From: a virus
DNA: 51,487 bases
Direction: 5' to 3' (one strand)
IMG/VR virus record: IMGVR_UViG_3300042914_000565
Span: 1 to 51,487 of that record
In this document: positions 8,880-51,487 of the stretch, piece by piece
Numbering within the stretch: the stretch's first letter is position 1
Layout: every line of letters begins with the position of its first letter
Notes under the pieces: generated by a model
What the model was told of the DNA's origin: nothing
Databases searched by the model: none
Seen by the model: only the letters and a program-made list of their open reading frames with translations
Made by a program: the position numbers and the translations under genes

Positions 8880-9370
8880 TGGCTAAGAAAGACTTAATGT
8901 CAAAATATCTTACTCCTCTAGATAGTTTAGAGAAGAACGGAACAGAAGTAATTAAAGACTTAGAAGCAGGATTTAGAGGTTCTGGAAGATTAGATACTTT
9001 AGTAGCTGAGTTAGCTTTAAGTATGCTAGAAGTTGCTAATAAAGTTCATCTTTTACATTGGGGAATGACTGGTCAAGGTTCTTATGCTGCACATCAAACT
9101 CTTGGTGACTTATATGACAGTTTACGAGGTAGAGCAGATGAAGTTGTAGAAAACTACCAAGGTATTGCAGAGACATTACTTACATTTATGGACTTTAATG
9201 TTAGTCCAAAATTTAAGGATGTAACTAACTGTTTAACTGCACTAGATACTTTAAAGAATAAAGTAGATGATCTTCAAAAAGAAAGTAAGTTTTCTGAATT
9301 CAATAACTTACTAGATGAGATTAAAGCAGACATTAATAAAGCAAAATATAAGTTGACTTTTTTGAAATAA
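8879..9370 (+). CDS. Dps/ferritin-like four-helix protein (DUF5856-type)
   Basis: A 163-residue helical protein. Residues about 46-100 (LALSMLEVANKVHLLHWGMTGQGSYAAHQTLGDLYDSL, split across two helices, then RADEVVENYQG) follow the pattern of Dps-like proteins: H-x-x-H-W in helix A, a later H, and D-E-x-x-E in helix B, the ligands used for metal binding in that fold. Phage proteins of the DUF5856 type show the same pattern and often lie near the portal gene. It may be a small head or connector component; iron binding or DNA protection is possible, since all ligand-type residues seem present. It starts on the portal stop codon. Confidence 0.65.
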   Translation: MAKKDLMSKYLTPLDSLEKNGTEVIKDLEAGFRGSGRLDTLVAELALSMLEVANKVHLLHWGMTGQGSYAAHQTLGDLYDSLRGRADEVVENYQGIAETLLTFMDFNVSPKFKDVTNCLTALDTLKNKVDDLQKESKFSEFNNLLDEIKADINKAKYKLTFLK

Positions 9371-9376
9371 AAGTAA

Positions 9377-11743
9377 ATGGATAATGCGACTAGAAGACAA
9401 TTGCTCGAACAAGCAAAACAAGTTGGATATACAGGAAGCATATTAGATGTATTCCAAAATCCACAAGTTCTAGATCAATTTGCTCAAGAGCAACAATCTC
9501 AACAACAAACACAAGTTCAGCAGCCTCAGCAGCAAATGCAAGTTGAGATGCCGACTCCTCCTGCTACAACTCCTAACTATAGAGTAGAACAACCTAGACA
9601 ATCTGAAGCTAAACCTTTAGTAATGTCTAACACTGAAGTTCCTATTCAGATTAGAAGAAATGGTGGGATAAAGTTTGACAATGGTGGGCCTAAAGATAAA
9701 GGTTGGAGAGAATATAAAACACCAACAGGTGAAAGTTTATATTTAGATCCTAGATTTAAAGATCAAAGATATTATGTAAATGAAAAAGGAGATCATATAA
9801 CTCCTAATCAAAACATGTCTTTATATGATGTTAATGAAAAAATATGGGAATCAGGAACATCATTACCTACTCTTAATATATCTCCTAGATATAAATATGA
9901 GCAACGTCCAGGTGCATTAGGCGCAATGGAAACTATTAGAGTTGATTTAGATAATAACTCTCAGCAAACAATATCTCCTGATGTAATGGCTACTAAAAGA
10001 GAGATGGATAGTTTTGCTAACTCTTTTAATCCTGCAGGTTTAGCTGTACAAGGTGTAAGTAATATGGCGCAAGGTAATATTGTAGAAGGCGCATTACAAA
10101 CTGCACTTAGTATTCCTGTTGTAGGGCAAGCTGTAGGTAAAGTAATTGGTGCTCCTTTTAAATTTATAGGTAATAAGTTAGCATCAACTTATGGTCCAGC
10201 GCTATCTGAAGTTGGTAGATTAGCAACTACAAAAACACCTTTAAGAAATGCTTATAATATTTTACCAAAAAGTACTAAACAACTACCTGGTTCTGGTAAT
10301 GTTAATGATGTAGTTAAGTTAGAATCTGAAATTTTAAAACCTAGATTTAACTTACAAAGAAGTTCATCTAAACCAAAAGATACTATGTTTAATAAAACAG
10401 AAGACCTTTCAGATGAAACATTTAACATAACAAAAACATTTAAGGGTAGGAGCGAAGAAGCTAAAACAATTCCAAGAAGTATAGATATAACAGGTAAATC
10501 TGGAAATTGGCAACTTAATAAAAACAATAATGGTACTTTTTCTTTTAGTGCTACTATGACTAATCCTGTTGAATCTGGTAGGGCTATGTTAAAGATGGAT
10601 AAGTTAATGCCTCCAAAACCTACCATACTAGAAGAAAAAAGTTATAGTCTTGACTCTTGGTTAAACCATGCAAAGTTAAAAAATAGACCTCATTGGTCTG
10701 GAGAATTTAATGGTTATATTCCTTTAAATCATAGTGCTGTACATAATAAAAGTTTGGCAAAATTTGTACCTGAAGCTACTATTGACTATAGTGTCTTTAA
10801 AAACCAAGTTGATGCAGAAGAAGCTTTACAAATAGTAAATAATTTAATTAAAAAACAAGGAGTTGCTCAAGAAGCTAAAATTTTAAAAACAGGAGATGCA
10901 TATCAAATTCAAATCCCTAATTTTAAATTAACTAGAGATTATAAAACTGGAGGAGTAATGTATAATTATGGAGGTATAACTGATCCTCCTTCTAAAACTT
11001 CAAACCCACAAATGCCTATAATTCAACAGCCTGCAGTATCTACAGCAATAGTTCCTACAGGAGCAGAATTATTTGCAAGAGATACTTCTTTACAATTAGC
11101 TGAAAAATTAAATACTTTACCAGAAGAACAACCTACAAAAGAATATTATCCTACAGATTCTTACATAAAACAATTAAGACTTCAAGAAAATGCAGGAAAA
11201 ACTGGGTATAAACAAGATAAATTTTATCCATATAATTCTGTAGAAGGAGGAACACCTACTATTGCTTATGGCCATAAACTTACAAAAGAAGAAGTAGCTA
11301 AAAAAATGTATCAAAATGGGCTTACCGAAGAAGAAGCTACTGCTTTATTAAAAAAAGATTTAGAAAGCCATGTTAATACAGCTCGTAGAACTTATAATAA
11401 AAAATATGGAGAAAATGCATTTAATTCTGTACCAGAAGATATGCAAAATTTATTAGTAGATTATTCTTATACAGGAACTGGTGTTAATGTTTTTCCTAAT
11501 TTTCATAATGCTATTTATAATTACAGTGTTGCAGATACTCCTGAAAAAAAATTACAAGCTCAGCAAGAGTTAATGAAAAATTATAAAAGGCATGTAAACG
11601 GAAAAGAATTATCTAGCAGAAATACATTTACAGAAAACATACTTAAAACTCTTCCAATTAAAAAATATGGAGGTAAAAAATGCTACACTTGTAACCAATC
11701 AAAATTACAAGTGCTATATAATAAAAGAAATTATAAAAAATAA
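9377..11743 (+). CDS. Multidomain virion protein with C-terminal T4-type muramidase
   Basis: A 788-residue protein. Residues 1-70 are Gln-rich and disordered. The middle (about 210-270) has Ala/Gly-rich helices (GNIVEGALQTALSIPVVGQAVG). Residues about 598-750 resemble phage lysozymes of family GH24: RLQENAG with Glu604 as the likely acid, TIAYGH with Thr628, and TEEEATALLKKDLE. The Asp of the usual E-D-T triad is not obvious; the place holds YNSVEGG. A domain like this in a head-gene context suggests a virion-carried enzyme that opens peptidoglycan during DNA entry, distinct from the 1010 endolysin. GG motifs (NGGIKF, YNYGG, KKYGG) recur at about 95, 531 and 764. The C-terminus has a CxxC (769-772). 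Confidence 0.7.
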   Translation: MDNATRRQLLEQAKQVGYTGSILDVFQNPQVLDQFAQEQQSQQQTQVQQPQQQMQVEMPTPPATTPNYRVEQPRQSEAKPLVMSNTEVPIQIRRNGGIKFDNGGPKDKGWREYKTPTGESLYLDPRFKDQRYYVNEKGDHITPNQNMSLYDVNEKIWESGTSLPTLNISPRYKYEQRPGALGAMETIRVDLDNNSQQTISPDVMATKREMDSFANSFNPAGLAVQGVSNMAQGNIVEGALQTALSIPVVGQAVGKVIGAPFKFIGNKLASTYGPALSEVGRLATTKTPLRNAYNILPKSTKQLPGSGNVNDVVKLESEILKPRFNLQRSSSKPKDTMFNKTEDLSDETFNITKTFKGRSEEAKTIPRSIDITGKSGNWQLNKNNNGTFSFSATMTNPVESGRAMLKMDKLMPPKPTILEEKSYSLDSWLNHAKLKNRPHWSGEFNGYIPLNHSAVHNKSLAKFVPEATIDYSVFKNQVDAEEALQIVNNLIKKQGVAQEAKILKTGDAYQIQIPNFKLTRDYKTGGVMYNYGGITDPPSKTSNPQMPIIQQPAVSTAIVPTGAELFARDTSLQLAEKLNTLPEEQPTKEYYPTDSYIKQLRLQENAGKTGYKQDKFYPYNSVEGGTPTIAYGHKLTKEEVAKKMYQNGLTEEEATALLKKDLESHVNTARRTYNKKYGENAFNSVPEDMQNLLVDYSYTGTGVNVFPNFHNAIYNYSVADTPEKKLQAQQELMKNYKRHVNGKELSSRNTFTENILKTLPIKKYGGKKCYTCNQSKLQVLYNKRNYKK

Positions 11744-11785: not shown

Positions 11786-12913
11786 ATGAGTAAACCAACA
11801 CTAAAATTTGAAGACATTTCTCTAGACGATGTTCTAGGGGATGGAATCGAACCAACTGGCGCAGACGAAGGCGTGAAAGGCGGTTCAGATCTAAAACTTG
11901 ATGAGAATCGAGATTTAGATAAAGATGACAAGAAACCAGTTAACGACCCATTAGATGACGAAGATGATACAGAAGATAATGAAGATAATAACAATGCTTC
12001 TGATGATGATTCTAATGATGACGATAATACTGATGATAACAGTGATAATGGCGGTAATGATAATGACAGTATTATCTCTTCTATTGCTAAATCACTTGGT
12101 TATGATGTGGAAAAAGAATATGCAGAAACCGAAGAAGGTTTAGCAGAATTCACTAAAGATATTGCACAAAATATTGCTGAAGAACAACTTGAAGGATTGT
12201 TTAAACAATTCCCAATGGTTCAAAAGCATTTAGATTTTGTAATGGCTGGTGGAGATCCTGAGAGATTCTTTGAAGCTTATAACCCAAGAACAAGTTTTGA
12301 ACACATGGAAATTGAGCAAGACGATAGTCGTACTCAAAAGTATATGATTAGTGAATTTTTGAGATCTAAAGGTCATGATGATGAGTTTATCAAAGACATG
12401 ATTAACGATTACGAAGATTCTGGTAAGTTGTATGATCGTGCTAAAGTTGCTCAGCGTAACCTTGCTACTATTCAAAAGCAAGAACGTGATGGAATGGTAC
12501 GTCAACAACAAGAAGCACAACAACGTGCTGCTGAAGAAAACGAAAGATTTTGGGAGGGAGTAGCAAACACAATTCAAGAAGGAAAAGAGTTTGCTGGTAT
12601 CCGTATTCCAGATCGTGAAAAAGCTAAATTCTTTGATTACATTTCTGAACCAGTTAATGATAACGGTCAGACTCGTAGAGATGTTGATTATTCTAAAGCT
12701 AACATAGAAGCTAAGTTGGCATTAGACTATTTGATGTACAAAGGATTTAACTTAAAAGATATTATTGATGTAAAAGCAAAGACTGCTAGCGCTTCTAGTT
12801 TAAGAGAAAGAGTTAAACAAAATGAAGAGCGAGTTAAGTCAATGCAGACTAACGATAGAAAAGGAAAGAAATTTGATGCAGATAATCTGGATCTAAAAGC
12901 ATTGTTTGGGTAA
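11786..12913 (+). CDS. Acidic, helical scaffolding-like protein
   Basis: A 375-residue protein just before the capsid gene. Residues about 45-95 are an almost pure Asp/Asn/Glu run with Ser and Gly, certainly disordered. The rest is helical and highly charged, with a Gln/Glu-rich coiled coil (about 205-255: ERDGMVRQQQEAQQRAAEE) and a basic C-terminus (ERVKSMQTNDRKGKKFD), as in scaffolding proteins whose basic helix binds the capsid protein. Phage scaffolds lie directly upstream of the major capsid gene, as here, and direct prohead assembly before leaving or being degraded. No protease domain is visible. A promoter box stands four bases before its ATG. Confidence 0.7.
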   Translation: MSKPTLKFEDISLDDVLGDGIEPTGADEGVKGGSDLKLDENRDLDKDDKKPVNDPLDDEDDTEDNEDNNNASDDDSNDDDNTDDNSDNGGNDNDSIISSIAKSLGYDVEKEYAETEEGLAEFTKDIAQNIAEEQLEGLFKQFPMVQKHLDFVMAGGDPERFFEAYNPRTSFEHMEIEQDDSRTQKYMISEFLRSKGHDDEFIKDMINDYEDSGKLYDRAKVAQRNLATIQKQERDGMVRQQQEAQQRAAEENERFWEGVANTIQEGKEFAGIRIPDREKAKFFDYISEPVNDNGQTRRDVDYSKANIEAKLALDYLMYKGFNLKDIIDVKAKTASASSLRERVKQNEERVKSMQTNDRKGKKFDADNLDLKALFG

Positions 12914-12951
12914 CCAGACAATATAACAATTAACTTTAAAAAAATATAATT

Positions 12952-14373
12952 ATGGCTCTAATGCAAGTTCTTAAAACGTACTATAATGATGCGCAAATGA
13001 CCGACACTAACTCGTTGGTTAACGCACTTATGGAGCGTCCAGAGGAGATCTCTCCTATCATTACTCACTTGGCTGGTCGTGAGGAAAAGAAATTTCCATT
13101 GTCTTTCTTGACTGAAGGTGTTGGAAACACTCGTTCAATTGATCGCTACGAATATGAATACCGTGTTAAAACTCACGAAATCAATGTTCGTCCAGTTGTT
13201 GTAGGTCCAGCTGTTGATTCAGGTGCAGGTGGTTCTCCTTTTACTTTGACTTTCCCTGACAAATGGTTTATTTTTCCTTACACTTTGGTATCTCAATCTG
13301 GTGTTCTTGCTCGTATTATGAGTGAGCCTATCCAAGATGGTGCTGGTTGGAAATATACTTTGCGTTTGGTATCTCCTGATACTTCTTCAGTTCCTGCAGC
13401 TGATGTAACTGCTGGTGCTTTGTGGGGTATGTTGTATGCTAATGTAGGAATTGACTTCTCTCGTGGTAATGCATCTAACTGGACTGCTCCTGGTTTGGTT
13501 CGTTCTAAAATTGGTACAGTACGTAAATCTTACCATTTCTCTGGAAATGCTAAAGATTATGTTGCTCAATTCGAGTTGCCTTTGAAAGAAGGAAGCAAAA
13601 CTAAATTGTGGATGGATTACGAAGAGTACCGTCACATGTTGAAGTTTAAAGAAGAGTGTGAAATGTACTATTGGTATGGTCAAAAAACTCATGATGAAAA
13701 TGGTGTTAGCACTATGTTGGATGAGAATGGTCAACCTGTAGTTTCTGGTCCTGGTTTGCTAGAGCAAATTATTAACAAAGACACTTATTCTAACTTGACT
13801 CAATCTAAGATTGAAGAAGTTATTGGTGATTTGTTTTATGGTATGACTGACGCTACTGATAAGCAAGTTACTTTGTATACTGGTATCGGTGGTGCTCGTG
13901 AATTTGACCGTGCTTTGAAAACTTATTATTCTTCTAACTCTTATTTGCAAACCACTCAACCAACTTTCATTACTGGTTCTGGTCGTAACTTGGGTATTAC
14001 TGGTTACTTCACTAGTTATGAGCACGTTGATGGTCATAGAGTTAACGTAGTTAAATCTCCTTTGTTTGATCACGGTCCTGTTGCTCAAGCTTCTAAAAAG
14101 CACCCAGTTTCTGGTTTGCCTTTGGAATCTTATCGCATGGTGTTTGTTGACCAATCTACTTATGATGGTGAAAATAACTTGCAAATGGTTAACAAGAAAG
14201 GTCGTGAATTGTTGCGTTGGTGCGTAGCAGGTTCTGTAGTTCCAAAAGGATTTACTGAAACTGATACTCGTGCTAGTGATATTGATGGTGCTTCCGTGCA
14301 TATGTTGAAGACTGCTGGTATCTTGCTTCGTCGTTTCGACACTAGCTTGGATCTTCAGTGTACTGCTGTGTAA
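12952..14373 (+). CDS. Major capsid protein (HK97-type, crAss-like)
   Basis: A 473-residue protein between the scaffold-like gene and a strong terminator. Its size and features fit crAss-like major capsid proteins: a helical N-terminal arm (LMQVLKTYYNDAQMTDTNSLVNALMERPEE), an E-loop-type region (RYEYEYRVKTHEINVRP), and long alpha/beta P- and A-domain segments. Codon use differs sharply from all neighbours: leucine is encoded almost only by TTG, with no TTA in the gene, arginine by CGT and glycine by GGT, and GC content is visibly higher. This is typical of the most highly expressed protein. The leader TTAACTTTAAAAAAATATAATT is A-rich, which favours translation in Bacteroidota. Confidence 0.9.
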   Translation: MALMQVLKTYYNDAQMTDTNSLVNALMERPEEISPIITHLAGREEKKFPLSFLTEGVGNTRSIDRYEYEYRVKTHEINVRPVVVGPAVDSGAGGSPFTLTFPDKWFIFPYTLVSQSGVLARIMSEPIQDGAGWKYTLRLVSPDTSSVPAADVTAGALWGMLYANVGIDFSRGNASNWTAPGLVRSKIGTVRKSYHFSGNAKDYVAQFELPLKEGSKTKLWMDYEEYRHMLKFKEECEMYYWYGQKTHDENGVSTMLDENGQPVVSGPGLLEQIINKDTYSNLTQSKIEEVIGDLFYGMTDATDKQVTLYTGIGGAREFDRALKTYYSSNSYLQTTQPTFITGSGRNLGITGYFTSYEHVDGHRVNVVKSPLFDHGPVAQASKKHPVSGLPLESYRMVFVDQSTYDGENNLQMVNKKGRELLRWCVAGSVVPKGFTETDTRASDIDGASVHMLKTAGILLRRFDTSLDLQCTAV

Positions 14374-14399
14374 GTTGTGTTAGGTTTAAGGTAAGGATA

Positions 14400-14429
14400 G
14401 GGGGAGGAAACTCCTCTCCCTTTCTTTTT
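14400..14429 (+). terminator. Rho-independent terminator after the capsid gene
   Basis: A 9-bp stem, GGGGGAGGA (14400-14408) with TCCTCTCCC (14412-14420), holding one G-T wobble, closes a 3-base loop and is followed by TTTCTTTTT. It is the strongest terminator in the window, and isolates capsid mRNA from the downstream genes. Confidence 0.85.
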
Positions 14430-14444
14430 AAAATATAAAAACAT

Positions 14445-14467
14445 CCCTAGTTATTCTTTGCCTAGGG
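14445..14467 (+). other. Inverted repeat in the post-capsid spacer
   Basis: CCCTAG (14445-14450) and CTAGGG (14462-14467) form a 6-bp inverted repeat with an 11-base loop that contains a TTCTTTG sequence. It lies between the terminator and the next ATG (14497). It could be an operator or an RNA hairpin at the 5' end of the next transcript; weak evidence. Confidence 0.3.
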
Positions 14468-14496
14468 CTATAATTAAAATAAAAAGAACAAAAAAC

Positions 14497-15300
14497 ATGA
14501 GAACAATTATTATTAGAAGGAAAGAGGTTTTGAACCATCTTCCTAAAGAAATCAGAGCAGGAGCTAAAGTTAAAATTGGTTCCTTATTTGTAAACAGACT
14601 TCCACTCAAAGGAGTAGAAGGTAAAGAAGAAGAAAAATTATTAAAAGAGTTGATTGATGTTCCTCCAACACACAATGACTGGCCTGCTAAAACAAAAGAC
14701 TTTTGGTCTAGTTTAAGTATCACAGTTCCATTTGAAGGTATTGAATTAAACATTGAAACAGACAAAGATGGTACTCCCGTTAATGCTATTGATTATATCA
14801 AGTATAAATGGGCAATTAAACATCGTCACGTTGCAATGTCAGAGGATGAAATGAAATCAACTCCCGACAAACGGTTTTACATCTACGATCCTCAAAAAGA
14901 CTTACTTAAGAAGAACAATAAAATTCAACTTAAGAAAGATGCGGATAAAGAGTTTATTAAATTGACAGGAGAATTTGAAAAAATGCGTACATTATTACGT
15001 GTATTGTCTAAAGGTAATCCTGATAATTTGACTGACATGGAAGTTGAAATTCAACTTTATGATGTTAAAGATTCTAATCCAGAACGCTTCTTGAAGTATT
15101 GTTTAGATGACAGTTTAGAGTTACGTTCTGAAATTGAACAAATGATTGAGTATTCAGTTCTTCGTCGTATTGGTAATCAAATTATTTACCAAGATGCTAC
15201 ATTAGGAGAAAACATGACTGACACTATCATTTACTTTAAGAATAAGAAAAACTCTGGAGCTGTAAACGCAATGCGTGCACAACTAAAAGAAGTTAAATAA
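14497..15300 (+). CDS. Conserved-looking protein after the capsid gene, 267 aa
   Basis: A 267-residue protein with N-terminus MRTIIIRRKEVLNHLPKEIR. The middle contains YIKYKWAIKHRHVAMSEDE, a stretch likely to be conserved, and the C-terminal half is charged and helical (EKMRTLLRVLSKGNPDNL, RSEIEQMIEYSVL). No enzyme motif is seen. Its place between capsid and connector genes suggests a virion or assembly protein of the crAss-like core. A frame extension upstream to a TTG at 14458 would run through the inverted repeat and is less likely than this ATG, which follows an A-rich leader. The stop overlaps the next ATG (TAATG). Confidence 0.75.
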   Translation: MRTIIIRRKEVLNHLPKEIRAGAKVKIGSLFVNRLPLKGVEGKEEEKLLKELIDVPPTHNDWPAKTKDFWSSLSITVPFEGIELNIETDKDGTPVNAIDYIKYKWAIKHRHVAMSEDEMKSTPDKRFYIYDPQKDLLKKNNKIQLKKDADKEFIKLTGEFEKMRTLLRVLSKGNPDNLTDMEVEIQLYDVKDSNPERFLKYCLDDSLELRSEIEQMIEYSVLRRIGNQIIYQDATLGENMTDTIIYFKNKKNSGAVNAMRAQLKEVK

Positions 15301-26639: not shown

Positions 26640-27341
26640 ATGACTTTAGACGAAATCGCATACAATATCAGAAACTTATACCGTGGTGGTAGAACAAACC
26701 AGGACGATCCTATAAGTTTATCTCAACTTAAATTTAACATCAAGTACTATCGTGCTATGTTTATCCGACGAGATTATGCTCGTAACGGATTAGTAACCAG
26801 ACACTTAGAACAAGATTTAAGATGTATTAAACTAGAACCTATTGATGCAAGTAAGTGTTGCAACTTAGAACTTAAATGCCCTGTTTATAGATCTGAGCGC
26901 CAAATCCCTAGAACAGTTAGATTTAACTTTGAAGAAGCAATTACATTTGTAGGAGATGTTACTGGACATGGTCGTATACAATTAGTTAGACCTTATGAAG
27001 TTAACTTCTTGACTTATGACAAATATACGTCAAGAGTTAAGAAAGCATTTATGCTAGAAGATTATTTGTACATTGTTAACCCCGAAGGTATGGATACTGT
27101 CAATCTTCGTGGTATCTTTGAAGACCCAGAAGAAATTGGAAAGTTTTTAGATTGTAACGGAACTCCTTGTTATGATGGAACTCAAATATTTCCTATGCCT
27201 ATGGATATGGTACAAGGAATTGTATCAGGGATTGCAGGAGGAGAATTAAGATTATTAGCTGGAAGTGTTAGTGATTCAGAACTTGATAGAGGATCTGATG
27301 GGTCAGGACAATCAGCAGCACCTAGAGAAACTAAAGAATAA
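26640..27341 (+). CDS. Ring/connector-type virion protein, 233 aa
   Basis: A 233-residue protein. The start MTLDEIAYNIRNLYRGGRTNQDDPISLSQLKFNIKYYRAMFIRRD has the pattern of crAss-like tail-barrel ring proteins: an N-terminal helix, GG, D-D-x-I-S, Q-x-x-F-x-I-x-x-Y-R-A, R-R-D. It continues as a beta-rich body with a cysteine pair (ASKCCNLELKC) and ends in a disordered Ser/Gly/Glu tail. Ring proteins stack between portal and muzzle. The downstream genes encode the gp4-like ring and the muzzle-type protein, which supports this place in the tail. Which ring it is cannot be decided by sight. Confidence 0.6.
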   Translation: MTLDEIAYNIRNLYRGGRTNQDDPISLSQLKFNIKYYRAMFIRRDYARNGLVTRHLEQDLRCIKLEPIDASKCCNLELKCPVYRSERQIPRTVRFNFEEAITFVGDVTGHGRIQLVRPYEVNFLTYDKYTSRVKKAFMLEDYLYIVNPEGMDTVNLRGIFEDPEEIGKFLDCNGTPCYDGTQIFPMPMDMVQGIVSGIAGGELRLLAGSVSDSELDRGSDGSGQSAAPRETKE

Positions 27342-27351
27342 AAAATTAAAA

Positions 27352-27621
27352 ATGGCATCACCAGCTTGGCAAAGAAAAGAAGGTAAAAATCCTAAAGGCG
27401 GACTTAACGCTAAAGGACGTGCAAGTTATAAAGCTTCACATCCTGGTTCTCATTTAGGAGCCCCACAACCAAAAGGAGGTTCAAGAAGAAACTCATTTTG
27501 TAATAGAATGTGTGGTATGAAAGCTAAACTTACGTCAGCTAAAACAGCAAGAGATCCAAATTCAAGAATTAATAAATCTTTGAGAATATGGAAATGCGGT
27601 AGTTGCTCTAATTGGAATTAA
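27352..27621 (+). CDS. Small basic phage protein (DUF6321-like), 89 aa
   Basis: An 89-residue, strongly basic protein. PAWQRKEGKNPKGGLNAKGRASY, a middle GAPQPKGGSRRNSFCNRMCGM, and the C-terminal WKCGSCSNWN form a pattern I know from small proteins of many T4-like and Bacteroidota phages (E-G-K-N-P-x-G-G-L-N-x-K-G-R; P-Q-P-x-G-G-x-R-x-x-S-F-C-x-R-M). The cysteines (FCNRMC, CGSC) may bind metal. Function unknown. I use the ATG at 27352, preceded by AAAAATTAAAA; a longer frame from 27265 overlaps the previous gene and reads poorly. Confidence 0.7.
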   Translation: MASPAWQRKEGKNPKGGLNAKGRASYKASHPGSHLGAPQPKGGSRRNSFCNRMCGMKAKLTSAKTARDPNSRINKSLRIWKCGSCSNWN

Positions 27622-27624
27622 ATC

Positions 27625-27852
27625 ATGGAACGAATTATACATCAGATTAAAGAACACGCAATGAATATTGAATGGGCAACAATTAATTTAGCTTGGATTA
27701 CATGGACATGGGCCATGTTTTCTAGTGTAATTACTTGGAGTCTAGGAGTCATAGGTGCTATTACACTTATTTGGTTTAACGTAGAGAGAGCGTTAACTGC
27801 TAGGAAAGAAAGACAACTTTTAAAATCTAAAGAGAATGAAAAAGCTAATTAA
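27625..27852 (+). CDS. Small membrane protein, 75 aa
   Basis: A 75-residue protein with a hydrophobic, Trp-rich region at about residues 17-54 (ATINLAWITWTWAMFSSVITWSLGVIGAITLIWF) that could form one or two membrane segments. A basic, polar C-terminal tail (RALTARKERQLLKSKENEKAN) follows. It is far from the lysis cassette, so it is less likely a holin; a role in the ejection apparatus or at the membrane during assembly is possible. It overlaps the next gene by 17 bases. A second ATG at 27661 could be the true start. Confidence 0.6.
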   Translation: MERIIHQIKEHAMNIEWATINLAWITWTWAMFSSVITWSLGVIGAITLIWFNVERALTARKERQLLKSKENEKAN

Positions 27853-28351
27853 AAGAGCTGACGGTTCTAAATCTCCTAGAGGTCTTTGGGATAACATCCG
27901 TGCCAATAAAGGTTCTGGAAAGAAGCCTACTAAAGAAATGCTAAAGCAAGAAGCTAAAATTAAAAAAGAAGAAAATATGAAAATGGAATACAAAAAAGGC
28001 GGAAAAAAGAATTCTGCTAAAACAGAAAAGAAATCTTTTATGGAAGATTCTAAAGAGATTAAATTCGGAGCACCTGGTGTTAATTTTTCTATGAAAGAAA
28101 AAGAAGGAGGAGAAGATGATGAAAAAATGATGGGTGGAAAAATGATGTACAAGAAAGGTGGTAAAAAAACTATGGAGCCAGGTGGTGGTGGTCGCTTTGC
28201 TAAGATGGTTAGCAAGATGAAGAAAGAAGGTAAATCAGAAGATTCTGCTAAAGCAATTGCTGCATCTGTTGGTCGTAAGAAATATGGTAAATCCAAGTTT
28301 CAAGAAATGGCTGCTGCAGGTAAAAAGAAAATGGGTGGTAAGAAATGCTAA
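27836..28351 (+). CDS. Lys/Gly-rich basic protein, 171 aa
   Basis: A 171-residue extremely basic protein (many KK pairs) starting MKKLIKRADGSKSPRGLWDN. It has GG motifs in MEYKKGGKKN (about 44-53), MMYKKGGKKT (about 101-110) and the C-terminal KKKMGGKKC. Residues about 115-165 (GGRFAKMVSKMKKEGKSEDSA, then KAIAASVGRKKYGKSKF) form a conserved-looking helical module also seen in many phage proteins. Such basic proteins may bind DNA or the inner face of the virion. It may be a small cargo protein, since GG motifs also occur in the 1411-residue protein. No family function is known. Confidence 0.65.
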   Translation: MKKLIKRADGSKSPRGLWDNIRANKGSGKKPTKEMLKQEAKIKKEENMKMEYKKGGKKNSAKTEKKSFMEDSKEIKFGAPGVNFSMKEKEGGEDDEKMMGGKMMYKKGGKKTMEPGGGGRFAKMVSKMKKEGKSEDSAKAIAASVGRKKYGKSKFQEMAAAGKKKMGGKKC

Positions 28352-35700: not shown

Positions 35701-36102
35701 TATAATATTGAACTTCCTTTTAAACAGTTCTATGTTTACAATACTTATCAAAATTCTGGATTAGTAAACTTTGAATATCTTAACAACATTAGAAAAGTAG
35801 AAGGTTCTTGGATGTTTAATGACTTTAGAGATTTAGTTAGATACTCTAAAAGTAGTAGACTATCTGATAATCAATACAATATCTCTGGAGGATTTAACTC
35901 AAATGTACAAACTCCAGAAGAGCAATTAATGTTTACAGATGAAGGAGTAATTAATTCTTTAATCTTAGATACAACTAAACCTTGGTATGAACAAAAGAAA
36001 TTTATATCTAAGTTTTTTGGTGTGAGATTAATTGGACAAGGTAATAATAATTTAGTAAATTTGTATTCAGCTAACGCTACATTACGTAAATCTTCAAGAT
36101 AA
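29719..36102 (+). CDS. Giant tail stabilisation (muzzle-type) protein, 2127 aa
   Basis: A 2127-residue protein. The start (KFLKGLYKDSGILDQPQSTHRDALNMVMN followed by GSISTEYGN) is the hallmark of crAss-like tail stabilisation proteins (K-D-x(5)-Q-P-x-x-T-x-R-x-A-L-N; E-x-G-N). The body is long, beta-rich, full of Tyr, Asn and Asp, with GCT/ACT-type fibre-like inserts (about 1120-1450) that include Ser/Thr-rich beta modules. Near the end, stretches such as KYGYAYVSRKEKKVFLLT resemble beta-propeller blades. In crAss001 the related protein forms the tail muzzle that closes the barrel. The gene starts by ATGA overlap with the ring-protein gene and shares its stop with the next ATG. Family assignment is firm; domain limits are approximate. 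Confidence 0.85.
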   Translation: MKFLKGLYKDSGILDQPQSTHRDALNMVMNLDKGSISTEYGNTVSQASQKIAASIPKILGEDRKINGSILLPDNKFLLFYSTLYKTGDFSSSYIYLFDPEGDLMTLLFATSDNPNDEYYDIVTGHLNFSPEYPITGEARVAANGDVIVYFTDNYKNVKVDAPTSIEYIDEYNPPRTFNITRQLTNLKNGATPNCLYVKLPGAKNTFTGKHIDYLNLFLTTKKIPQVKEHKLIKGGILETGAYYLCLAYATEDYTETNVYTVSQPVYIPKGNYLDNGVTPAVPFEHMTGAPANTQTSFAIQWTYSWRSDIVGSLDNLPYDENYPYIVPYIIKVSGTARTAFKLPLVPTEILGQVTFTGNENYAISSVENIVLDKATYLSAKTITQLDNKLYLGNLTARKDIGFQRFAANIKTVPVIKKMQRFDNRVFDALNMNYGYTQITKRDSNNGTYVQEFQDYKFISTYYNKYQLTSIYDGDTNFWTQDEDESSIYYPATETNRMGGYKNQYAASYLKSYRRGEVYALYISFVLNDGTETYAYHIPGRPQDSLVTWYFNTGNESEMTEAGDYISPYGAYFSIDEDDNGTTRSSSIQNLDLRDRLGDYHYNKVYDTSKEVIPNRVRTDDEYSMGYWRNENETYPDTPDFRLFDVTSTGESEEAAENLYNIESRYVRHHKFPSNLNKDFAFIDLDRDSLYRIKIPASPSATVSGHVEQSLLVNLRTATTGWDDQPNQSAFFYETINILGFQLRNIKIPKFILKQVQGFKVYYAKRTLENKTILGQSLVHQSFFRAHGFFSTTRLNLSNKKLGPFYRYWSFYGNIPDVRSTDINAYIKYDTYYTGKFTFEDDNSITSGSNDIYYGSPIVKFHDFTMLRKKINIGIADYISIQSMITMHQFQGMFRNAVKDPTVTVNNSNGNPNIDYLQAYKFFLTGQNENEEFSWVHADLGNLTSKYARANNDGTFQEFVENRGPANFKTHVMIGARYNSYCQTSFNNYENSTGIFTNPFNPRALANVFAISNNGATYINGLSYLKVTDVDSFHGAQYLDNYAGESAMVLSIKSGLPSLLGYNINPEEDAVPRYDFSSAEGSILAAKNPTEITDPTYPTEQRGKANIFLANLNSYKTDVFNPFDNQQLVWTGYYHPFQITESSLETGAIGGLLNCIETTNYELITDIQANITTQTIAGSVILTYDTNGTYVDPIEFECTDENGDSLVPGTTYNYTVILEAPVTNAISDAALSLGGGTPVLLDTNTTYFTGTIVCGTDDPAYLSFNLNDDGYKFTVKIILTLDAPECITTYDSSYLETAFQNTDNYETILPDYSNNNNYYGGFNSGWIFGGDTFIARYGYRTTSMDFPNYYLVQNQYMQISGLGIPSIQNISPGFGSQLSLPENMTLTFSGVSLPSSSGPDVYLGAVAFMNMRVARTYGTDAWPISAGDSVFTNLVYLQLGASVGINASPNGMYALRNFQEKMFVEGNSTLYSIFVESDDNLNFRHCGDVVKGVGKSNSLFFDSFNAAEILFRSPLIDLTKQDNLLYEDHYSALQDIKTTIPFPKKGEIETAFPSRVIRSNVQDGRIDDNYRNFLALQYKDFSQNKGAITNLVALNGLLFIHTEKSLYKTTGKQNLQLGDSTEAYIGSGDIFAQEPMELVTAAEGHGGSFNKHSSIISKYGYAYVSRKEKKVFLLTDKLTEISQQGMENWFRLNIPYTLETVSEVNPYPINLDTIPYLNLDAPTGSFGFISTYDPLFKRFIISKRELVYSDRLKTLLKDYFIPNGIDFNFDPGDCLETEYNTVNNDTIPQGTGVGIINGSALLTKPYLAPTFAGIWYDPNLGGFIFNSALVEEFATLGIENWSLHSTPITLQTTGESSIDCITATYYLINISNDNYWFKENGWTISYYPDNQSWISRHSYVSPWYFYNSEYFFSFNSFINSTTPDTFKIWKHNSTNGAQFYNVNHNYEFEFIVNDSPDITKVLSSVNFIADVYTKDETGATALEQSVTMLKDKFSTYNIELPFKQFYVYNTYQNSGLVNFEYLNNIRKVEGSWMFNDFRDLVRYSKSSRLSDNQYNISGGFNSNVQTPEEQLMFTDEGVINSLILDTTKPWYEQKKFISKFFGVRLIGQGNNNLVNLYSANATLRKSSR

Positions 36103-39100
36103 TGGCTAAACCTAAAAAATATATATCCTCTAAACTAAAAGTTAAACGCAAATTTTTATTAGGAGGAGATCCTGGACAGGAACTTTATTTAAATAATAAT
36201 GTTACTTATCAAGCTGCAGATGCTCCGACTGCTATGCTTCAAAATCAATTTGATGCTAATGAGCAACTTAAAGCTAAACAGAATACTGCCATCTTTGGTA
36301 ATCAATTGGCTAGACAGATGGATTATCTTCAAGATTTAAATGCTAATGTTGAAAAAAGAAAAAAAGCAGAAGAGACTGCTAGACAGCAGCAAGCTGAAGC
36401 TGATAAACAAGCTGTTAATCAACAAGTTATACAAACTGCAGGTAAAGTTGGAAAACAATTAAGTAAAGATTATAAAGCAGGTAATATTTCTACTCTTAAT
36501 ACTAATAAGTTAGGAGATTCTGCAAACATGTTTAGTAATGCTAATATTGCTGGAGGAGCGCCTTTAAGTCCTACAATGGGAACTACTACAACAAGTTTAA
36601 GTACATATTCTCATCCTTTTATTACATCTAATGCTCCTTTAACTTCTGCTAATGTAATGCCTAGTGCTCCTTCAGCAGTTAATCAATTTATGCCTCAAGG
36701 TTTAAATCAAGGTACATATTTAACTGGACAAGGAGCAGATACTGCAGTTAAAACAGGAAGTGCCTTTGGACAAAATGCTGCAGCTATAGGTAAAAGTCTT
36801 GGAAAATCAGCATTAATAGCTGCTCCACAAATTGTAGGACAAGTTGCATCTAATCAGTTAAATAAAGCTGATGATAGACAAATGAAACGTGAAAAACGTA
36901 GTCAGTATTATGATGATACTGATTACTCTAGAAAAGAATTTAATGCACAATTACTTAAATCAACTGGTAAAGGTGCTACTATTGGAGGAACAATTGGAAG
37001 TATGATTCCAATTCCAGGAGTAGGAACGGGTGTAGGTATGGCTATAGGAGCTGGTGTAGGAGCAATTGCAGGAGCAGGAAAAGCTTTACATGAACGTCGT
37101 AAAACTACAGGTAAAAACTGGTTTGGAGAATCTAATGTTTATGATGAAAATCTAGATCCTACAGTAATTGAAAAGCGTAATAGAGAAGCACAGTTAAAAG
37201 CAATGACAGATACTGCTACCGCTATGGATAATGCTAGAATGGGTAGTATGTTACAAACTGATCTTAATACTGGATTTAATCTAAAGTCTACTTCTGGTCA
37301 AATGGCTAAGTATGGTGGTAAAATTGAATACTTAAAAGGTGGAGTAGCTAAGTCATTAGGTAGAGGCGCTAAAGAATATGTAGGTAAAAAACATGAACAA
37401 GGTGGAATTGATCTTCCTGGTAACATTGAAGTTGAAGGAGGAGAAACAGAACAAAATAATTACATTTTCTCTGCTACATTAAAATTACCTACAGGTCTTA
37501 CTTATGCTCAAGCTCATAAAAACCTACTTAAGTCTGGAGCATCTTCTGAAGAAATTAAACAACTTGCTTTATCTCAAGAAGCAGCAGCAGGTAGAAATCC
37601 TAATGAAATTAAAACTATGAAGTTTGCTAAATATGGTGGTCCTTTAGAGTATAAAAGAGGAGGAAAGAAAAAACGTGATAAAAATGCTGAAGAACCTAAT
37701 TATTTTACAAGTGGACAGTTTGCTAAAGATCAAATGTCAAAAGGGCCTGAATCAATTAGTCAGGGAAGAACAAAAGAATATTGGCAAAATTTAGAAGAAG
37801 AATGTCTTTTAAATCCTAATGCAGAAGGTTGTACAAAATTTGATGATCCAGATGAATCTGTAAATTTAGCTGGAAAATTAGCTGCTAAACGTAATGCAAT
37901 GAATAAAAGTATTGCATTAGGAGAAGAAGTACCTACTGATTTTATAGAAAAAGATTTTACACCTAAAAATATAAATTCATATCCTGACTATAAAGATATT
38001 ATGAAACCTTATGATTATATTCAGGAAACAGCACTAAATCCTTATGTAAGAAAACAAATTTTAAAGAAAGTATTAGATGATCCTTCTTTTTACGACTATA
38101 AAACCAACGGTTATGAAGATCTTGAAAATCTTCCTACAGATAAACTTGTAGCATTTGCAAACGAAAAAGGAATAGAATATTCACAAGATATTTATAATCT
38201 GTCTAATAAAGATTTACTTCCTAATTTAACTCAAGAAGAATTTGAATTTTATAGAGGACAGAGAAATAGTCCTGATATGCAATCTTATGTAACAGATGAA
38301 AGATTAACTCAAAAAAAGCAAAATACTAGACGTAATGCAGAATTGTGGCAAGATACTGCTACAGGAGAATATATTTATAGAGCACCTGATGGAACAGAAA
38401 TAGCAAGATCTACGGATCAAAATCAAGCTGGTGTTAATAGAGATCTTTATTTTGAAAATTTAAAAAAACAATCTGTAAAAGTTTCTTCTAGTAACCCTCC
38501 TGCTAAACAATATAATGCTATTGGCGTAAATCCTCCTGCAAATAATACAGTAACAGAAGATAATAAAATGCAAGGTGCAGATTTGCCTGAAGTATCAATT
38601 ACTGGTGAAAGACCTAAAGTAAATACTGAAGTTGCAAATACTAATACTCAAAATAATCCTCCTGCTAATACTACAAATACTACTCAAAATCCACCTGTTA
38701 ATACTACTGAAACTCAAACTAATACTACTCAAACTCAAACTACTAATAATCCTCCAGTTAATAATAATCCTTCTGGAACAGTAACTTATACTACTTCTGA
38801 TAAAGAAGTTCCTAAACCTACATCTACTCCTTCTCCTACTGATAACAAACCTAGGTTCTTTATGGGAGCTACTAGGATTGTAGATGAAAATGGTAATGTT
38901 AAAATTCTTACTGATAAACCTTTAACGGGACATGGTAGTATGGCTGGTTCTAGATTAGGAACACCTACTATTGAAGGATTAGCAGATGTAAGATATAACT
39001 CTTATGATGCCGCTGCTAATCTTAAAAAAGATGAAGATTATAAAAATAAAGTAGGAGGTGCTGCTTTAAGTTTTTCAGATGCTGTTAATGATAGAGAAAC

Positions 39101-40337
39101 AATTGCAGGAACTGATTGGGGTAAAAGATGGGGATATAAACCAGGTATGAGTGCTGGAGAAGCTCAAGCTGCACATGATGCATTTGCTTCTGAAATGCGT
39201 ACTAAGTTTGATAAATCTCCTGATGAAATGTTAGGTTATTATCAGTACTTAATAGATTCTGGAAAAGTAGATCCTAAAACAGGAAAAAGAGATTATACTG
39301 GAGAAGATTCTTTTGGAGATGATGCAAGAGCTATTTATGAAAATCTTAAATCTAAAGGATACATTGATGCTGATGGTAAAATTAAATCTACAGCTTTATC
39401 ATATTTAAAAGAACAAGCTACTGATGAATTTGTAGGTCCTATCCATAATGCAGCAGGTGCGTATACTTTAAAAGATAAACCAACTACTAATAAAATTGTT
39501 GAAGATACTCCACCACCTGTTGGTCCTCCTGAAACTCCTAAAAAAACATTAGAAGAATTACCGCCTCCTCCTAAATATATTCCAACTAAGTCTACTAACA
39601 ATATTGGATTATTACAAACTATTCCTGCAGCTTATGCAGCATTTAATCCAATCAATGTTAAACCTATTGCTCCTTCATTAGCTGCTGGATATGTAACTCC
39701 TGGAGCAGTTGGAAGAACTAATATTGGTAGAATATCTTTAAATACATACCGTGGTGAAAATCAAGGTAACTTATCTGCTATGAATCAAGCATTGCAAAAT
39801 ATGTCTGGTCCAGGTGCAGTTGCTGGTATGTTAGCTGCTAAAACAAAAGCTGACCAACAAAGTTTAGCTATTGCAAATGCTGAACAAAATCAAAATACTG
39901 CATTAGCTGCTAAAGAAGCAGATTTAAATGCAGGTATTTCTAAATTTAATGTTGGAAATGCAATGCAAGCTCAAACTACTAATGCAGGAATTGCTCAACA
40001 AAATGCAGCTAGAATGCAACAAGCTATGCAATTTAATACTCAACTTAAGTATGCTAAAGATGTTGAAAATAGAGAACAGATGCTAGGAGCATTAGATAGA
40101 GGAACTGCTGCTATTGTACAAAACAATTTAGCTAATAGACAATTAGATGCTACTGAAAGATTAGCTGGAGTGTATGATGCATATTCTGCATATAATAGAT
40201 ATTTAGGTGCTACTCAAGCTCAAAATAATGCTGCTAAAAAAGAAGAAGATAAAACTAATCAAGTAGCTAAATTTGGTGGTGTTAAAAAATATGTTTCTAG
40301 ATTAGGAGACTTAAAAAACGTAAAATATAAAGTATAA
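36102..40337 (+). CDS. Large cargo-type virion protein with repeated AK[YF]GG motif, 1411 aa
   Basis: A 1411-residue protein. Residues 60-100 are coiled coil. About 285-330 is a glycine-zipper hydrophobic region (GGTIGSMIPIPGVGTGVGMA), of the kind found in ejected phage proteins that enter membranes. A nine-residue motif occurs three times: AKYGGKIEY (402-410), AKYGGPLEY (509-517) and AKFGGVKKY (1389-1397). The first two flank a module with KHEQGGIDL...EVEGGE...FSATL. Residues about 845-890 are an Asn/Thr/Pro linker. The C-terminal third is Ala/Gln-rich and helical. In crAss-like phages the genes after the muzzle encode cargo proteins stored in head and tail and injected with DNA; this fits by place, size and composition. 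Confidence 0.65.
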   Translation: MAKPKKYISSKLKVKRKFLLGGDPGQELYLNNNVTYQAADAPTAMLQNQFDANEQLKAKQNTAIFGNQLARQMDYLQDLNANVEKRKKAEETARQQQAEADKQAVNQQVIQTAGKVGKQLSKDYKAGNISTLNTNKLGDSANMFSNANIAGGAPLSPTMGTTTTSLSTYSHPFITSNAPLTSANVMPSAPSAVNQFMPQGLNQGTYLTGQGADTAVKTGSAFGQNAAAIGKSLGKSALIAAPQIVGQVASNQLNKADDRQMKREKRSQYYDDTDYSRKEFNAQLLKSTGKGATIGGTIGSMIPIPGVGTGVGMAIGAGVGAIAGAGKALHERRKTTGKNWFGESNVYDENLDPTVIEKRNREAQLKAMTDTATAMDNARMGSMLQTDLNTGFNLKSTSGQMAKYGGKIEYLKGGVAKSLGRGAKEYVGKKHEQGGIDLPGNIEVEGGETEQNNYIFSATLKLPTGLTYAQAHKNLLKSGASSEEIKQLALSQEAAAGRNPNEIKTMKFAKYGGPLEYKRGGKKKRDKNAEEPNYFTSGQFAKDQMSKGPESISQGRTKEYWQNLEEECLLNPNAEGCTKFDDPDESVNLAGKLAAKRNAMNKSIALGEEVPTDFIEKDFTPKNINSYPDYKDIMKPYDYIQETALNPYVRKQILKKVLDDPSFYDYKTNGYEDLENLPTDKLVAFANEKGIEYSQDIYNLSNKDLLPNLTQEEFEFYRGQRNSPDMQSYVTDERLTQKKQNTRRNAELWQDTATGEYIYRAPDGTEIARSTDQNQAGVNRDLYFENLKKQSVKVSSSNPPAKQYNAIGVNPPANNTVTEDNKMQGADLPEVSITGERPKVNTEVANTNTQNNPPANTTNTTQNPPVNTTETQTNTTQTQTTNNPPVNNNPSGTVTYTTSDKEVPKPTSTPSPTDNKPRFFMGATRIVDENGNVKILTDKPLTGHGSMAGSRLGTPTIEGLADVRYNSYDAAANLKKDEDYKNKVGGAALSFSDAVNDRETIAGTDWGKRWGYKPGMSAGEAQAAHDAFASEMRTKFDKSPDEMLGYYQYLIDSGKVDPKTGKRDYTGEDSFGDDARAIYENLKSKGYIDADGKIKSTALSYLKEQATDEFVGPIHNAAGAYTLKDKPTTNKIVEDTPPPVGPPETPKKTLEELPPPPKYIPTKSTNNIGLLQTIPAAYAAFNPINVKPIAPSLAAGYVTPGAVGRTNIGRISLNTYRGENQGNLSAMNQALQNMSGPGAVAGMLAAKTKADQQSLAIANAEQNQNTALAAKEADLNAGISKFNVGNAMQAQTTNAGIAQQNAARMQQAMQFNTQLKYAKDVENREQMLGALDRGTAAIVQNNLANRQLDATERLAGVYDAYSAYNRYLGATQAQNNAAKKEEDKTNQVAKFGGVKKYVSRLGDLKNVKYKV
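38637..38772 (+). repeat. Asn/Thr/Pro/Gln low-complexity coding repeat
   Basis: In-frame degenerate repeats built from AAT ACT ACT CAA and AAT CCT CCT/CCA units encode NTTQNPPVNTT-type sequence (about residues 846-890 of the 1411-residue protein). It is a flexible linker between the GG-motif half and the Ala/Gln-rich half, and a likely site of length variation between relatives. Confidence 0.7.
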
Positions 40338-48923: not shown

Positions 48924-51487
48924 ATGGCAATTACCTGTCCTAATACAAATTCACAAGATTGGAAAGATTTAGTTAAGATTCATGGAGAAAGTTTAGCAGC
49001 TTATCTATGGGATAGATACAAAGGATTTGTTCCATCTGAACTTTATACTACTACTCTTCCTGAAGTTTTTAATAATAAAAATATTCTTTACAGACAAGGA
49101 GAAGTAGGAGATAAAGAATTTGTAGACATTAGAAATACTTTATACTCTGTATTTATTAATAGTATGTACAATAGTGCAGACTTTAATGCTGGTAGTTCTT
49201 TAGGTATAGGTAATAACAAAGGAGAGATAGCTAATGGTTATGCTACTAAAATGTATAAGTCTACATCTGGACAACCTATTGCTGATGAGAAAGTATTTCA
49301 AGCATTACAGTTAGAGAATGCATATGATACTGCTGTAAGATTAAATAATGCAGAAGAAGCTAATAAAGCTAAACAAGCATTGTTTGCTTTCCTTAAAGGT
49401 AATAACATGACTTTTGCATTATCTACTCCAGAGTTAGTTAAAATTAGAAATACTTACAAAAACATTTATCTTAATTGGAATACTAAAGTAGATGACCTAG
49501 GTAACATTACTTCAATTGGATGGAGAGATATCTTAGTAGATAAGTTAGCAGAAGCTGGATATAAAATTAACGCTACTCCAGAATCTACAGAGATAGAAGA
49601 TGCTACAGATATAGAGGAAATGCAGCCAGATGATTTTAAGTTAGAAACTTTAGAATCTTCTGAAGAAAAGATTTACAGCAAACAAAGTGTAGAGAATAAT
49701 CCCGCTAAAAAATTAACTCAAGCAGTTAAAGAGTTATTGGCTACAGTACCATCTGGTGAACAGAACTGGTTAGGTCAATCTACATTTTTAGAAAGGGATG
49801 AAGTATATAAAGCGTTATTGAATATCTGGGTAGGTAAACAATCCTTTGCAGATATGAAGGCGGCTTTAGAAGCTTTTGCTGTGTACAAACCTGCATATAC
49901 AAATGTATTAAATTTCATTAATACTCTTGATGGACAAAAACAAGCAATGCTTTATTCTGCATTTGCTTTGAACTATAACAAGTTCTTATTATTCAAAAAA
50001 GAAACTACTAACGCTGGTACTACAGTATCTATCATTAATCCAAATCTTAAAACAATATCAAAGTCGTTTACAGGTAAATGGAGAGGACAATCTGTAGAAC
50101 AAGATATTCCTAATGAACGTGCTCTTTATAAAATGAATGCACAAGGTCAGATGGAAGTTAAGCCTGGTAAAATAGCAGAGATTACTCGTATTACAGATAA
50201 GATTGATAAGTTTTTAAAAGACAGAACTAACTCTGATACACTAGTACAAGAGTCTGGTGTAAATGAAATGGTAAGAGAGCTAAGTAACTTACTATGGGAG
50301 ATGTCAATTAACTTAGGAGATAACATTCGTATTGAAGATACTTATGCTAATCTTCAAAAGTATATTAATACTGGAGATAATATCTTAAGTGGTAAGAAAT
50401 ATATTAAAGCTAATGGCCGTCTATTGTTTTTAGATCTTTACAACAAGGCTAAAGCAATGGCTACTAGTGTAAGTAATACAAACAAAACTATTGATATATA
50501 TAAGAATAACAGAGGAGACATTGAGTATATCGCTCGTATCCTCCCTTATTTTATTAATCAAGTAGGAGATACATTTATTAGTGGATCAGGTAAATCAATC
50601 TATCCTGCTAACCAAGAAACTCAGATGGACCAAATTGTAAATACAATTAAAGGTTTAGGAAACAAATCTGAAATGATGGAGATGTATTTAGGAGATGCTT
50701 TTATTTCTGGATATGGAAACCCAGAACTAATGAGTTATTTGTTTCGTCACTTTGGTAATCAAGATTTCTTATCATCTTTTAATGTAGAAACTTTGGACAC
50801 TGTAAAGGATGATAAAAGAATTGATGCTCAAGATTATGAAGATTTCTCAAAGTTAGATTCTGTTGCTACTCGTATTAATGCTTTCCTTAACGGAGGTAAT
50901 AAAAAGTTCTTTAGAACTTCAATGACTCTAGGATCTAGAGGTACAATGAAGATGACAGTAGTTCCTCGTATTGGTAATACTGGTCTTTATGGAATAGATA
51001 CAACTGTTGCTAAAGAAATTAAAAAGCAAATTATTCAAGACTTTATTAGGATTAATGAATCTACTAAGTTTATCAATAAAGTTATTGCTGATAATGCTAA
51101 TGTTCCTATGGAAGAAAGAGATTACTCTATGCTTCTTGAAGGAACAGATTATAGATTAGAAGAAGATCAACAACCTACAAATCAAAATATAGCAGACGCT
51201 ATTAAAAATAGAACAGGTAGAGAGTTTGATCCTGCATTTATGCAGTTTGCTATGTTAGATGAAAACGGAAATCAAATTGTTACTGATGAACAACTTACTG
51301 ATGCTACTGTAAAAGAAAAGAATATTTCTGAATTCATAGAAGATTATATTAAAAATCCAATGTCTTTAACTCCTGAAATCAAAGCAATGATTGATGAGAG
51401 ATTAGAGTCAATGACTAAAGATATTTTAAAGTACTTTGAGGTTAAAGCTAACGAGTTGTATAGTACTTTAAGTAAAAATGGAAAGTT
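48924..51487 (+). CDS. Giant virion protein, N-terminal 854 residues; virion RNA polymerase candidate (partial)
   Basis: An open frame from ATG at 48924 to the end of the window (854 codons and two bases), without a stop. It begins MAITCPNTNSQDWKDLVKI, then HGESLAAYLWDRYKG, a start I associate with very large phage proteins. The body is helical and mixed, with IDIYKNNRGDIEYIARILPY and FLNGGNKKFFRTSMTLGSRG around residues 525-680. In crAss-like phages the last giant gene of this block encodes the virion-packaged RNA polymerase with a DFDGD-type catalytic motif; that motif is not in the visible part, so the call rests on position and size. It follows the 2088-residue gene by five bases. Confidence 0.55.
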   Translation, partial: MAITCPNTNSQDWKDLVKIHGESLAAYLWDRYKGFVPSELYTTTLPEVFNNKNILYRQGEVGDKEFVDIRNTLYSVFINSMYNSADFNAGSSLGIGNNKGEIANGYATKMYKSTSGQPIADEKVFQALQLENAYDTAVRLNNAEEANKAKQALFAFLKGNNMTFALSTPELVKIRNTYKNIYLNWNTKVDDLGNITSIGWRDILVDKLAEAGYKINATPESTEIEDATDIEEMQPDDFKLETLESSEEKIYSKQSVENNPAKKLTQAVKELLATVPSGEQNWLGQSTFLERDEVYKALLNIWVGKQSFADMKAALEAFAVYKPAYTNVLNFINTLDGQKQAMLYSAFALNYNKFLLFKKETTNAGTTVSIINPNLKTISKSFTGKWRGQSVEQDIPNERALYKMNAQGQMEVKPGKIAEITRITDKIDKFLKDRTNSDTLVQESGVNEMVRELSNLLWEMSINLGDNIRIEDTYANLQKYINTGDNILSGKKYIKANGRLLFLDLYNKAKAMATSVSNTNKTIDIYKNNRGDIEYIARILPYFINQVGDTFISGSGKSIYPANQETQMDQIVNTIKGLGNKSEMMEMYLGDAFISGYGNPELMSYLFRHFGNQDFLSSFNVETLDTVKDDKRIDAQDYEDFSKLDSVATRINAFLNGGNKKFFRTSMTLGSRGTMKMTVVPRIGNTGLYGIDTTVAKEIKKQIIQDFIRINESTKFINKVIADNANVPMEERDYSMLLEGTDYRLEEDQQPTNQNIADAIKNRTGREFDPAFMQFAMLDENGNQIVTDEQLTDATVKEKNISEFIEDYIKNPMSLTPEIKAMIDERLESMTKDILKYFEVKANELYSTLSKNGK

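Follow-up and report, generated by a model that had tools for sequence, protein, structure and literature searches.

A GG-basic C-terminal element in three protein families of a crAss-like phage, a candidate capsid-loading tag

Crassviruses are the most abundant gut phages, and how the proteins carried in their heads are chosen is an open question; only parts of one cargo protein have been resolved in the virion. The question is raised at one locus of the IMG/VR virus record IMGVR_UViG_3300042914_000565, the whole 51,487-nucleotide stretch of which was analyzed (referred to here as the window), and which, on the evidence of its relatives and crass ring proteins, is from a crAss-like phage. A 1411-residue predicted protein, C1, assigned to the type of crassvirus cargo protein 1, repeats a short motif centered on two glycines (GG), and similar motifs lie in other predicted virion proteins. 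We describe here the wider element to which the motif belongs, the three protein families that share it, and the reasons for regarding its C-terminal form as a candidate signal for loading proteins into the capsid.

The GG element and the families that carry it

The initial annotation reported the nine-residue copies AKYGGKIEY (residues 402-410), AKYGGPLEY (509-517) and AKFGGVKKY (1389-1397 of 1411) in C1, and all three are located as claimed; its description of C1 as otherwise non-repetitive is incorrect, there being an NPPANTT/NTT repeat stretch around residues 810-890. The triple is real and beyond chance. AK[YF]GG occurs three times in C1, where composition predicts 0.006, and a six-frame search of the window gave no further occurrence. 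When the low-complexity NPPANTT stretch is set aside, the three copies give the highest score of any 9-mer pair or triple in C1, and neither score was reached in any of 200 local shuffles. A fourth copy at the N-terminus (KRKFLLGG) had been overlooked, and copies 1 and 2 are doubled (GGKIEYLKGG and GGPLEYKRGG). Judged from these and the related copies, the nine-mer belongs to a wider element, which has a basic or aromatic residue before GG and is often doubled. The doubled form can be written GG-x-[KE]Y-xx-GG, internally often GG-x0-3-[KRE][YF]-xx-GG, and the C-terminal form is K-x-GG with a basic tail. The motifs reported in other proteins are also present: KKYGGKKCY (residues 762-770), NGGIKF and YNYGG in a 788-residue protein labeled a muramidase, and MEYKKGGKK, MMYKKGGKK and KMGGKK in a 171-residue basic protein.

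Genes were called as simple longest open reading frames (ORFs), and contig ends cut some proteins short. Clustering of 801 ORFs from 18 related contigs yielded three families with a common GG-plus-basic C-terminus: C1, the small basic protein, and the muramidase, which we refer to as the slot protein. In these families there are 37 matches to the core pattern, an approximately 10-fold excess over the 3.8 expected. The 750 other proteins of the same contigs have 7 matches against 7.4 expected, so that it is at chance level there and not scattered at random through non-virion proteins. The doubled form is found 34 times against 1.7 expected in the three families and four times against 2.4 in the other proteins, two of those four matches being in further cargo-like proteins. 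The patterns, fixed beforehand, were also applied to a replication set of 29 newly fetched C1 proteins, several of them near-identical and all related, and 83 neighbors. The tag form was found 54 times in the C1 proteins (6.7 expected) and 4 times in the neighbors (7.2 expected), and the doubled form 28 times (1.0 expected) and not at all (1.3 expected), respectively. In other contigs, 32 of 50 slot proteins have the C-terminal tag pattern. Outside the slot family it is present in one of four basic proteins and in three of the 43 scaffold proteins, and the remainder of the 51 groups are without it. Over their final 25 residues the three tagged families have net charges of +6.9 to +7.4, against a mean of 0.03, and rank 1-3 among 59 families.

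A slot protein with constant ends and an exchangeable payload

Comparison with its relatives indicates that the muramidase gene is a swappable-payload gene. It follows a portal or Dps-like gene and is usually followed by a scaffold-like gene. Slot proteins (n = 63) range from 114 to 1048 residues, and 59 of the 63 have a GG-plus-basic end; what is constant is the N-terminus (MDN[AS]TRR...) and the C-terminal tag, with a variable middle that ranges from 0 to about 900 residues. There are at least eight payload groups mutually without blastp similarity, the largest of which was joined by single linkage and is perhaps mosaic. PHROGs and Pfam gave functions for few payloads, only lysozyme (window), glucosaminidase (relative L065) and L,D-transpeptidase (L066), and no MuF domain was found in Pfam scans of 30 slot-locus proteins.

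The closest comparisons are with L005, L006 and L069, whose terminases are 98-100% identical to that of the window and whose payloads differ from it. Homology is lost close to the first GG, about 95 residues in, and picks up again a few residues at most from the last GG; L069 shares an additional short stretch with the window slot protein. L006 is an empty form, with both ends joined directly at one GG: PIQIRKTGGKKCYTC. Among 124 alignments confined to the C-terminus, most, not all, begin at most 10 residues from a GG. The middle is thus exchanged between near-identical phages and the tagged end is unchanged, which makes the GG element look like a cargo loading tag. Pooled over eight close relatives, the tag has nonsynonymous (dN) and synonymous (dS) divergences of 0.060 and 0.22 (dN/dS about 0.27), a ratio indicating that it is under purifying selection. 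Two versions of the tag were used to scan the whole of IMG/VR and matched 13 and 25 stretches; the ten additional matches examined are all C-terminal in a slot-type protein, with the scaffold gene starting about 47 bases later.

Several further observations concern the slot locus and other GG-bearing proteins. In the slot proteins of L242, L226, L141, L126 and L123 a segment near the N-terminus (residues about 43-144) matches DUF192 (PF02643), with scores that in some cases exceed the cut-off. A Dps/ferritin-like protein (DUF5856; PHROG 858; 8879-9370), unusual company for head genes, is encoded between the portal and slot genes, and occupies the same place in many relatives. Beside the L220 slot gene is a gene for an 859-residue protein (12713-15292, minus strand) with an unrelated body, ARYGGYKYENGG internally and FKKGGLKSKVSSKFAKLKL at its end; these sequences make it a probable fourth tagged protein. 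Small proteins of 264-268 residues in L235 (12835-13629) and L307 (29516-30322), corresponding to Carjivirus and cr110_1, have several CGG copies near basic residues, one of them C-terminal, together with a glycine-rich hydrophobic stretch.

C1, its relatives and the surrounding genes

Searches of IMG/VR and GenBank phages with the whole C1 protein gave no match, so its relatives had to be traced by synteny and domain profile; C1 was located in 19 of 22 related records. The motif is not absent from relatives at equivalent places: it recurs at both borders of the central domain and at the C-terminus, where in many relatives it reads K[FLM]GGxRxY[TV]SRLG[ED]L. [KR][YFL]x0-3GG is present within the first 45 residues of 17 of 41 non-redundant C1 proteins, and of the 36 that have a natural end, 31 have GG accompanied by Tyr or basic residues among their final 45 residues. 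In alignment with crAss001, copy 1 corresponds to NAFGG, where the ordered part of the portal-bound segment begins (A425), and copy 2 lies just past the domain, matching the placement of FAYGG. The C1-position proteins of DAC15 (SAYGGPLFDEGG and AEGGYLYEDGG) and cr127_1 (AKYGGRFPIRY and AKYGGRCK) have similar copies. The element extends to gut Crassvirales, where C-termini at the C1 position include RCGGKKKIA (crAss002), RCGGHRR (Carjivirus), RCGGKRRK (ctbg_1), CGGGKKVRKRKR (cr110_1) and RKGGK (cr53_1), and crAss001 ends in a KGGKVRTKKKK tail.

The neighbors of C1 are tail ring proteins (CrAss_Ring_1, E 9.4e-58; CrAss_Ring_2, E 2e-30), a large structural protein, and C2-like and gp47-like genes, and its place after ring/stabilization-type genes and before C2-/gp47-type genes is that expected for crassvirus cargo protein 1. 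Using hhalign, residues 402-499 match the portal-bound domain of crAss001 gp45 (cargo protein 1) with a probability of 94.8% and E 5e-8. The Pfam family PF25725 (crAss_CARG1) is sub-threshold for the C1 domain (16.6 bits, cut-off 27) and matches none of the other aligned C1 members; a PDB sequence search with C1 and the C1 domain profile gave chance matches only. An AlphaFold2 model of residues 379-543 has a mean predicted local distance difference test (pLDDT) score of 55, with both motif copies in low-confidence flanks, and Foldseek found nothing for it in the PDB; no structural claim is therefore built on the model.

The features of the window are listed in Table 1. Outside these, residues 287-326 of C1 (36960-37079) form a glycine-zipper-like segment (PF13488, below cut-off), possibly a membrane-inserting part. 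A DUF6321 protein (27265-27621) is encoded upstream of the basic GG protein and resembles several PHROG families of up to 928 residues at their C-terminal ends. The truncated last ORF (48924-51487) belongs to a family of about 2480 residues (relatives L212, L215, L219 and L253), complete relatives having a conserved HExxH near residue 100; a second family of about 1500 residues also has HExxH, and both may be zincin proteases.

Table 1. Positions of the tagged proteins, their GG copies and the scaffold-like protein in the window
Feature	Residues	Coordinates	Strand	Remarks
Payload-slot protein ("muramidase"), 788 residues		9377..11743	+	Constant ends, variable middle; upstream of scaffold gene
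Constant N-terminal carrier part	1-95	9377..9661	+	57-100% identity in close relatives; homology stops at GG junction
Left payload junction NGGIKFDNGG	95-104	9659..9688	+	
Internal doubled copy TGGVMYNYGG	524-533	10946..10975	+	
Phage_lysozyme domain in payload	618-683	11228..11425	+	PF00959, 25.5 bits, cut-off 22.3
C-terminal tag KKYGGKKCYTCNQSKLQVLYNKRNYKK	762-788	11660..11740	+	Conserved although payloads differ
Scaffold-like acidic protein, proposed docking partner		11786..12913	+	Directly upstream of major capsid protein
Acidic run of scaffold-like protein, net charge -20	53-92	11942..12061	+	
Small basic protein, 171 residues, GG motifs		27836..28351	+	
Doubled copy GGKMMYKKGG	100-109	28133..28162	+	
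C-terminal tag KKMGGKKC	164-171	28325..28348	+	GKK[KR]MGGKKC ends several relatives
C1-type cargo protein, 1411 residues, motif carrier		36102..40337	+	Gene order and central-domain profile match to crAss001 gp45
N-terminal copy KRKFLLGG	15-22	36144..36167	+	N-terminal GG pattern also in other C1 proteins
Copy 1, doubled, AKYGGKIEYLKGG	402-414	37305..37343	+	Upstream edge of portal-docking-type domain
CARG1-like domain	402-499	37305..37598	+	hhalign to crAss001 gp45 portal-bound domain
Copy 2, doubled, AKYGGPLEYKRGG	509-521	37626..37664	+	Downstream edge of portal-docking-type domain
Copy 3 and basic C-terminal tail, AKFGGVKKYVSRLGDLKNVKYKV	1389-1411	40266..40334	+	

A loading tag, other explanations and known systems

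We propose, giving it about an even chance, that the C-terminal GG-basic form would act as a capsid-loading tag, probably by docking on the acidic scaffold, and that the internal copies would be joints or anchors. The element, [KRA]-x-[Y/F/L/M/C]-GG with basic and aromatic residues after it, is common to proteins that we predict to be packed in the head before infection; in the case of the slot and basic proteins, packing there is probable from the positions of their genes and from their domains. The strongly basic tail would bring otherwise unrelated bodies into the assembling procapsid, namely those of C1 (the portal-docked cargo), of the small basic protein and of exchangeable payloads, for example a cell-wall hydrolase. 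The likeliest docking surface would be the acidic region at the N-terminus of the scaffold encoded beside the slot gene, which in every N-terminally complete member has a run with a net charge of -18 to -29 per 40 residues; the basic tails, this acidic run and the analogy with the N-loop of P22 (below) together suggest docking on the scaffold. Doubled internal copies at the borders of folded modules, as at the C1 portal-docking domain and both payload ends, may serve as flexible anchors or joints.

More tentatively, the system may be one of modular delivery, in which a constant carrier and GG-basic tag surround an exchangeable payload, the same class of tag loads C1 and the basic protein, and cargo evolves by exchange at GG joints. 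If the tag predicts cargo, packaged proteins could be listed from sequence alone and rapidly exchanged injected enzymes pinpointed. A literature search, the coverage of which excluded most subscription papers, found no earlier account of such a tag in crassviruses, and no mention of the motif was found in the passages of the crassvirus atlas paper that were consulted.

Several points weigh against the proposal of a loading tag. The slot, basic and C1 relatives share ancestry, so the counts are of non-independent events; the patterns were partly picked on the first data set, and details of the tag vary from family to family. C2 and the RNA polymerase-type gp47-like cargo are without the motif, so head loading is possible without it, and a universal cargo signal is rejected. 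No such C-terminal end is present on C1 of cr10_1, cr118_1, cr272_1, cr127_1, cr8_1, DAC15, FpV4 or phi14:2, of which FpV4 is the more distant; the annotated phi14:2 proteins detected by mass spectrometry are without the tag, which makes this phage unusable as virion evidence. Untagged Crassvirales have acidic scaffolds too; acidity alone is therefore no predictor of the tag, and as its sole determinant is unsupported. The initial annotation's suggestion that the motif may sort cargo or bind one common partner survives in a narrower form, as an element restricted to and conserved in the tagged families, with C2, gp47-like cargo and some Crassvirales untagged.

The GG could instead be a processing site, as had also been suggested, at which a virion or head-maturation protease trims the basic ends or releases payload and portal-docking domain. 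The layout of the copies, close to either terminus and at both ends of the payload, is propeptide-like, two large zincin-type HExxH families are encoded downstream in the same genomes, and the targeting peptides of T4 are removed by proteolysis (PMC9026906). However, the ordered portal-bound segment of crAss001 begins A425-F-G-G (PMC10172136), so this copy appears uncut and still joined to the domain. The residues following GG are conserved inside each family, the text of the crassvirus atlas has no words starting with "cleav" or "proteoly", and no prohead protease was recognized among 14 Pfam-scanned window proteins, a scan that included no dedicated search for one. We consider processing unlikely on this balance.

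A serious but similarly unlikely alternative is that the basic GG tails attach to packaged DNA or to the envelope, acting as nucleic-acid- or membrane-binding or condensing tails of ejection proteins, and are not a loading signal. Their strong positive charge and K/R-Y-GG composition, the motif-rich small basic protein, and the suitability of the tagged set for the ejection stage (channel, cell-wall enzymes) are consistent with this, but charge alone accounts neither for the conserved GG and aromatic residue nor for a near-identical tag on different payloads. It is also conceivable, and in our view very improbable, that the stretches coding for GG have no peptide function and, as recombination joints or neutral flexible linkers, owe their position to module shuffling. 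Payload homology does stop at or near GG, the ends of L006 are joined at a single GG, and the left and right junctions of L005 have a short TGGAGGTAAA stretch in common. Against this, codons vary by family (GGTGGT in C1, GGAGGT in the slot protein), no module follows the tags at the extreme C-terminus, the basic and aromatic context is conserved with dN below dS, and a direct DNA repeat search at the L005 payload junctions gave none of 12 nt or more.

The proposed loading tag can be compared with four known systems. The domain of crAss001 gp45 (cargo protein 1) is resolved on the portal wing (PMC10172136). The two proteins have a homologous central domain, the same gene place and A[YF]GG copies that flank the domain; gp45 differs in its length (842 residues against 1411) and C-terminal tail, and the window C1 is below the Pfam cut-off. 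In P22, a negatively charged N-loop of the scaffold helps to incorporate the ejection protein gp16 (PMC12005531), which resembles the acidic N-terminal part proposed here as a docking surface, although no common tag sequence is reported for the P22 ejection proteins (PMC12005531). MuF fusions and polyvalent proteins are likewise phage-packaged proteins with exchangeable effector domains (PMC5512222), whereas the slot carrier consists of two constant ends around a payload and no scanned slot protein has a MuF domain. A parallel in principle is T4, in which a common capsid targeting sequence (CTS) directs different proteins (IPI-IPIII and Alt) to the head and is thought to permit varying protein loads (PMC9026906). 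Both are single short sequences on otherwise different proteins, those described here being predicted head cargo. The T4 sequence is N-terminal and is cut by gp21 after [LI]xE, whereas the element here is mainly C-terminal and GG-basic; a T4-type N-terminal propeptide of 10-19 residues is not matched, the constant tag being C-terminal and an N-terminal GG present in only 17 of the 41 C1 proteins. With its C-terminal placement, the GG tag would fall outside the T4 CTS class and yet would be similar to it in working.

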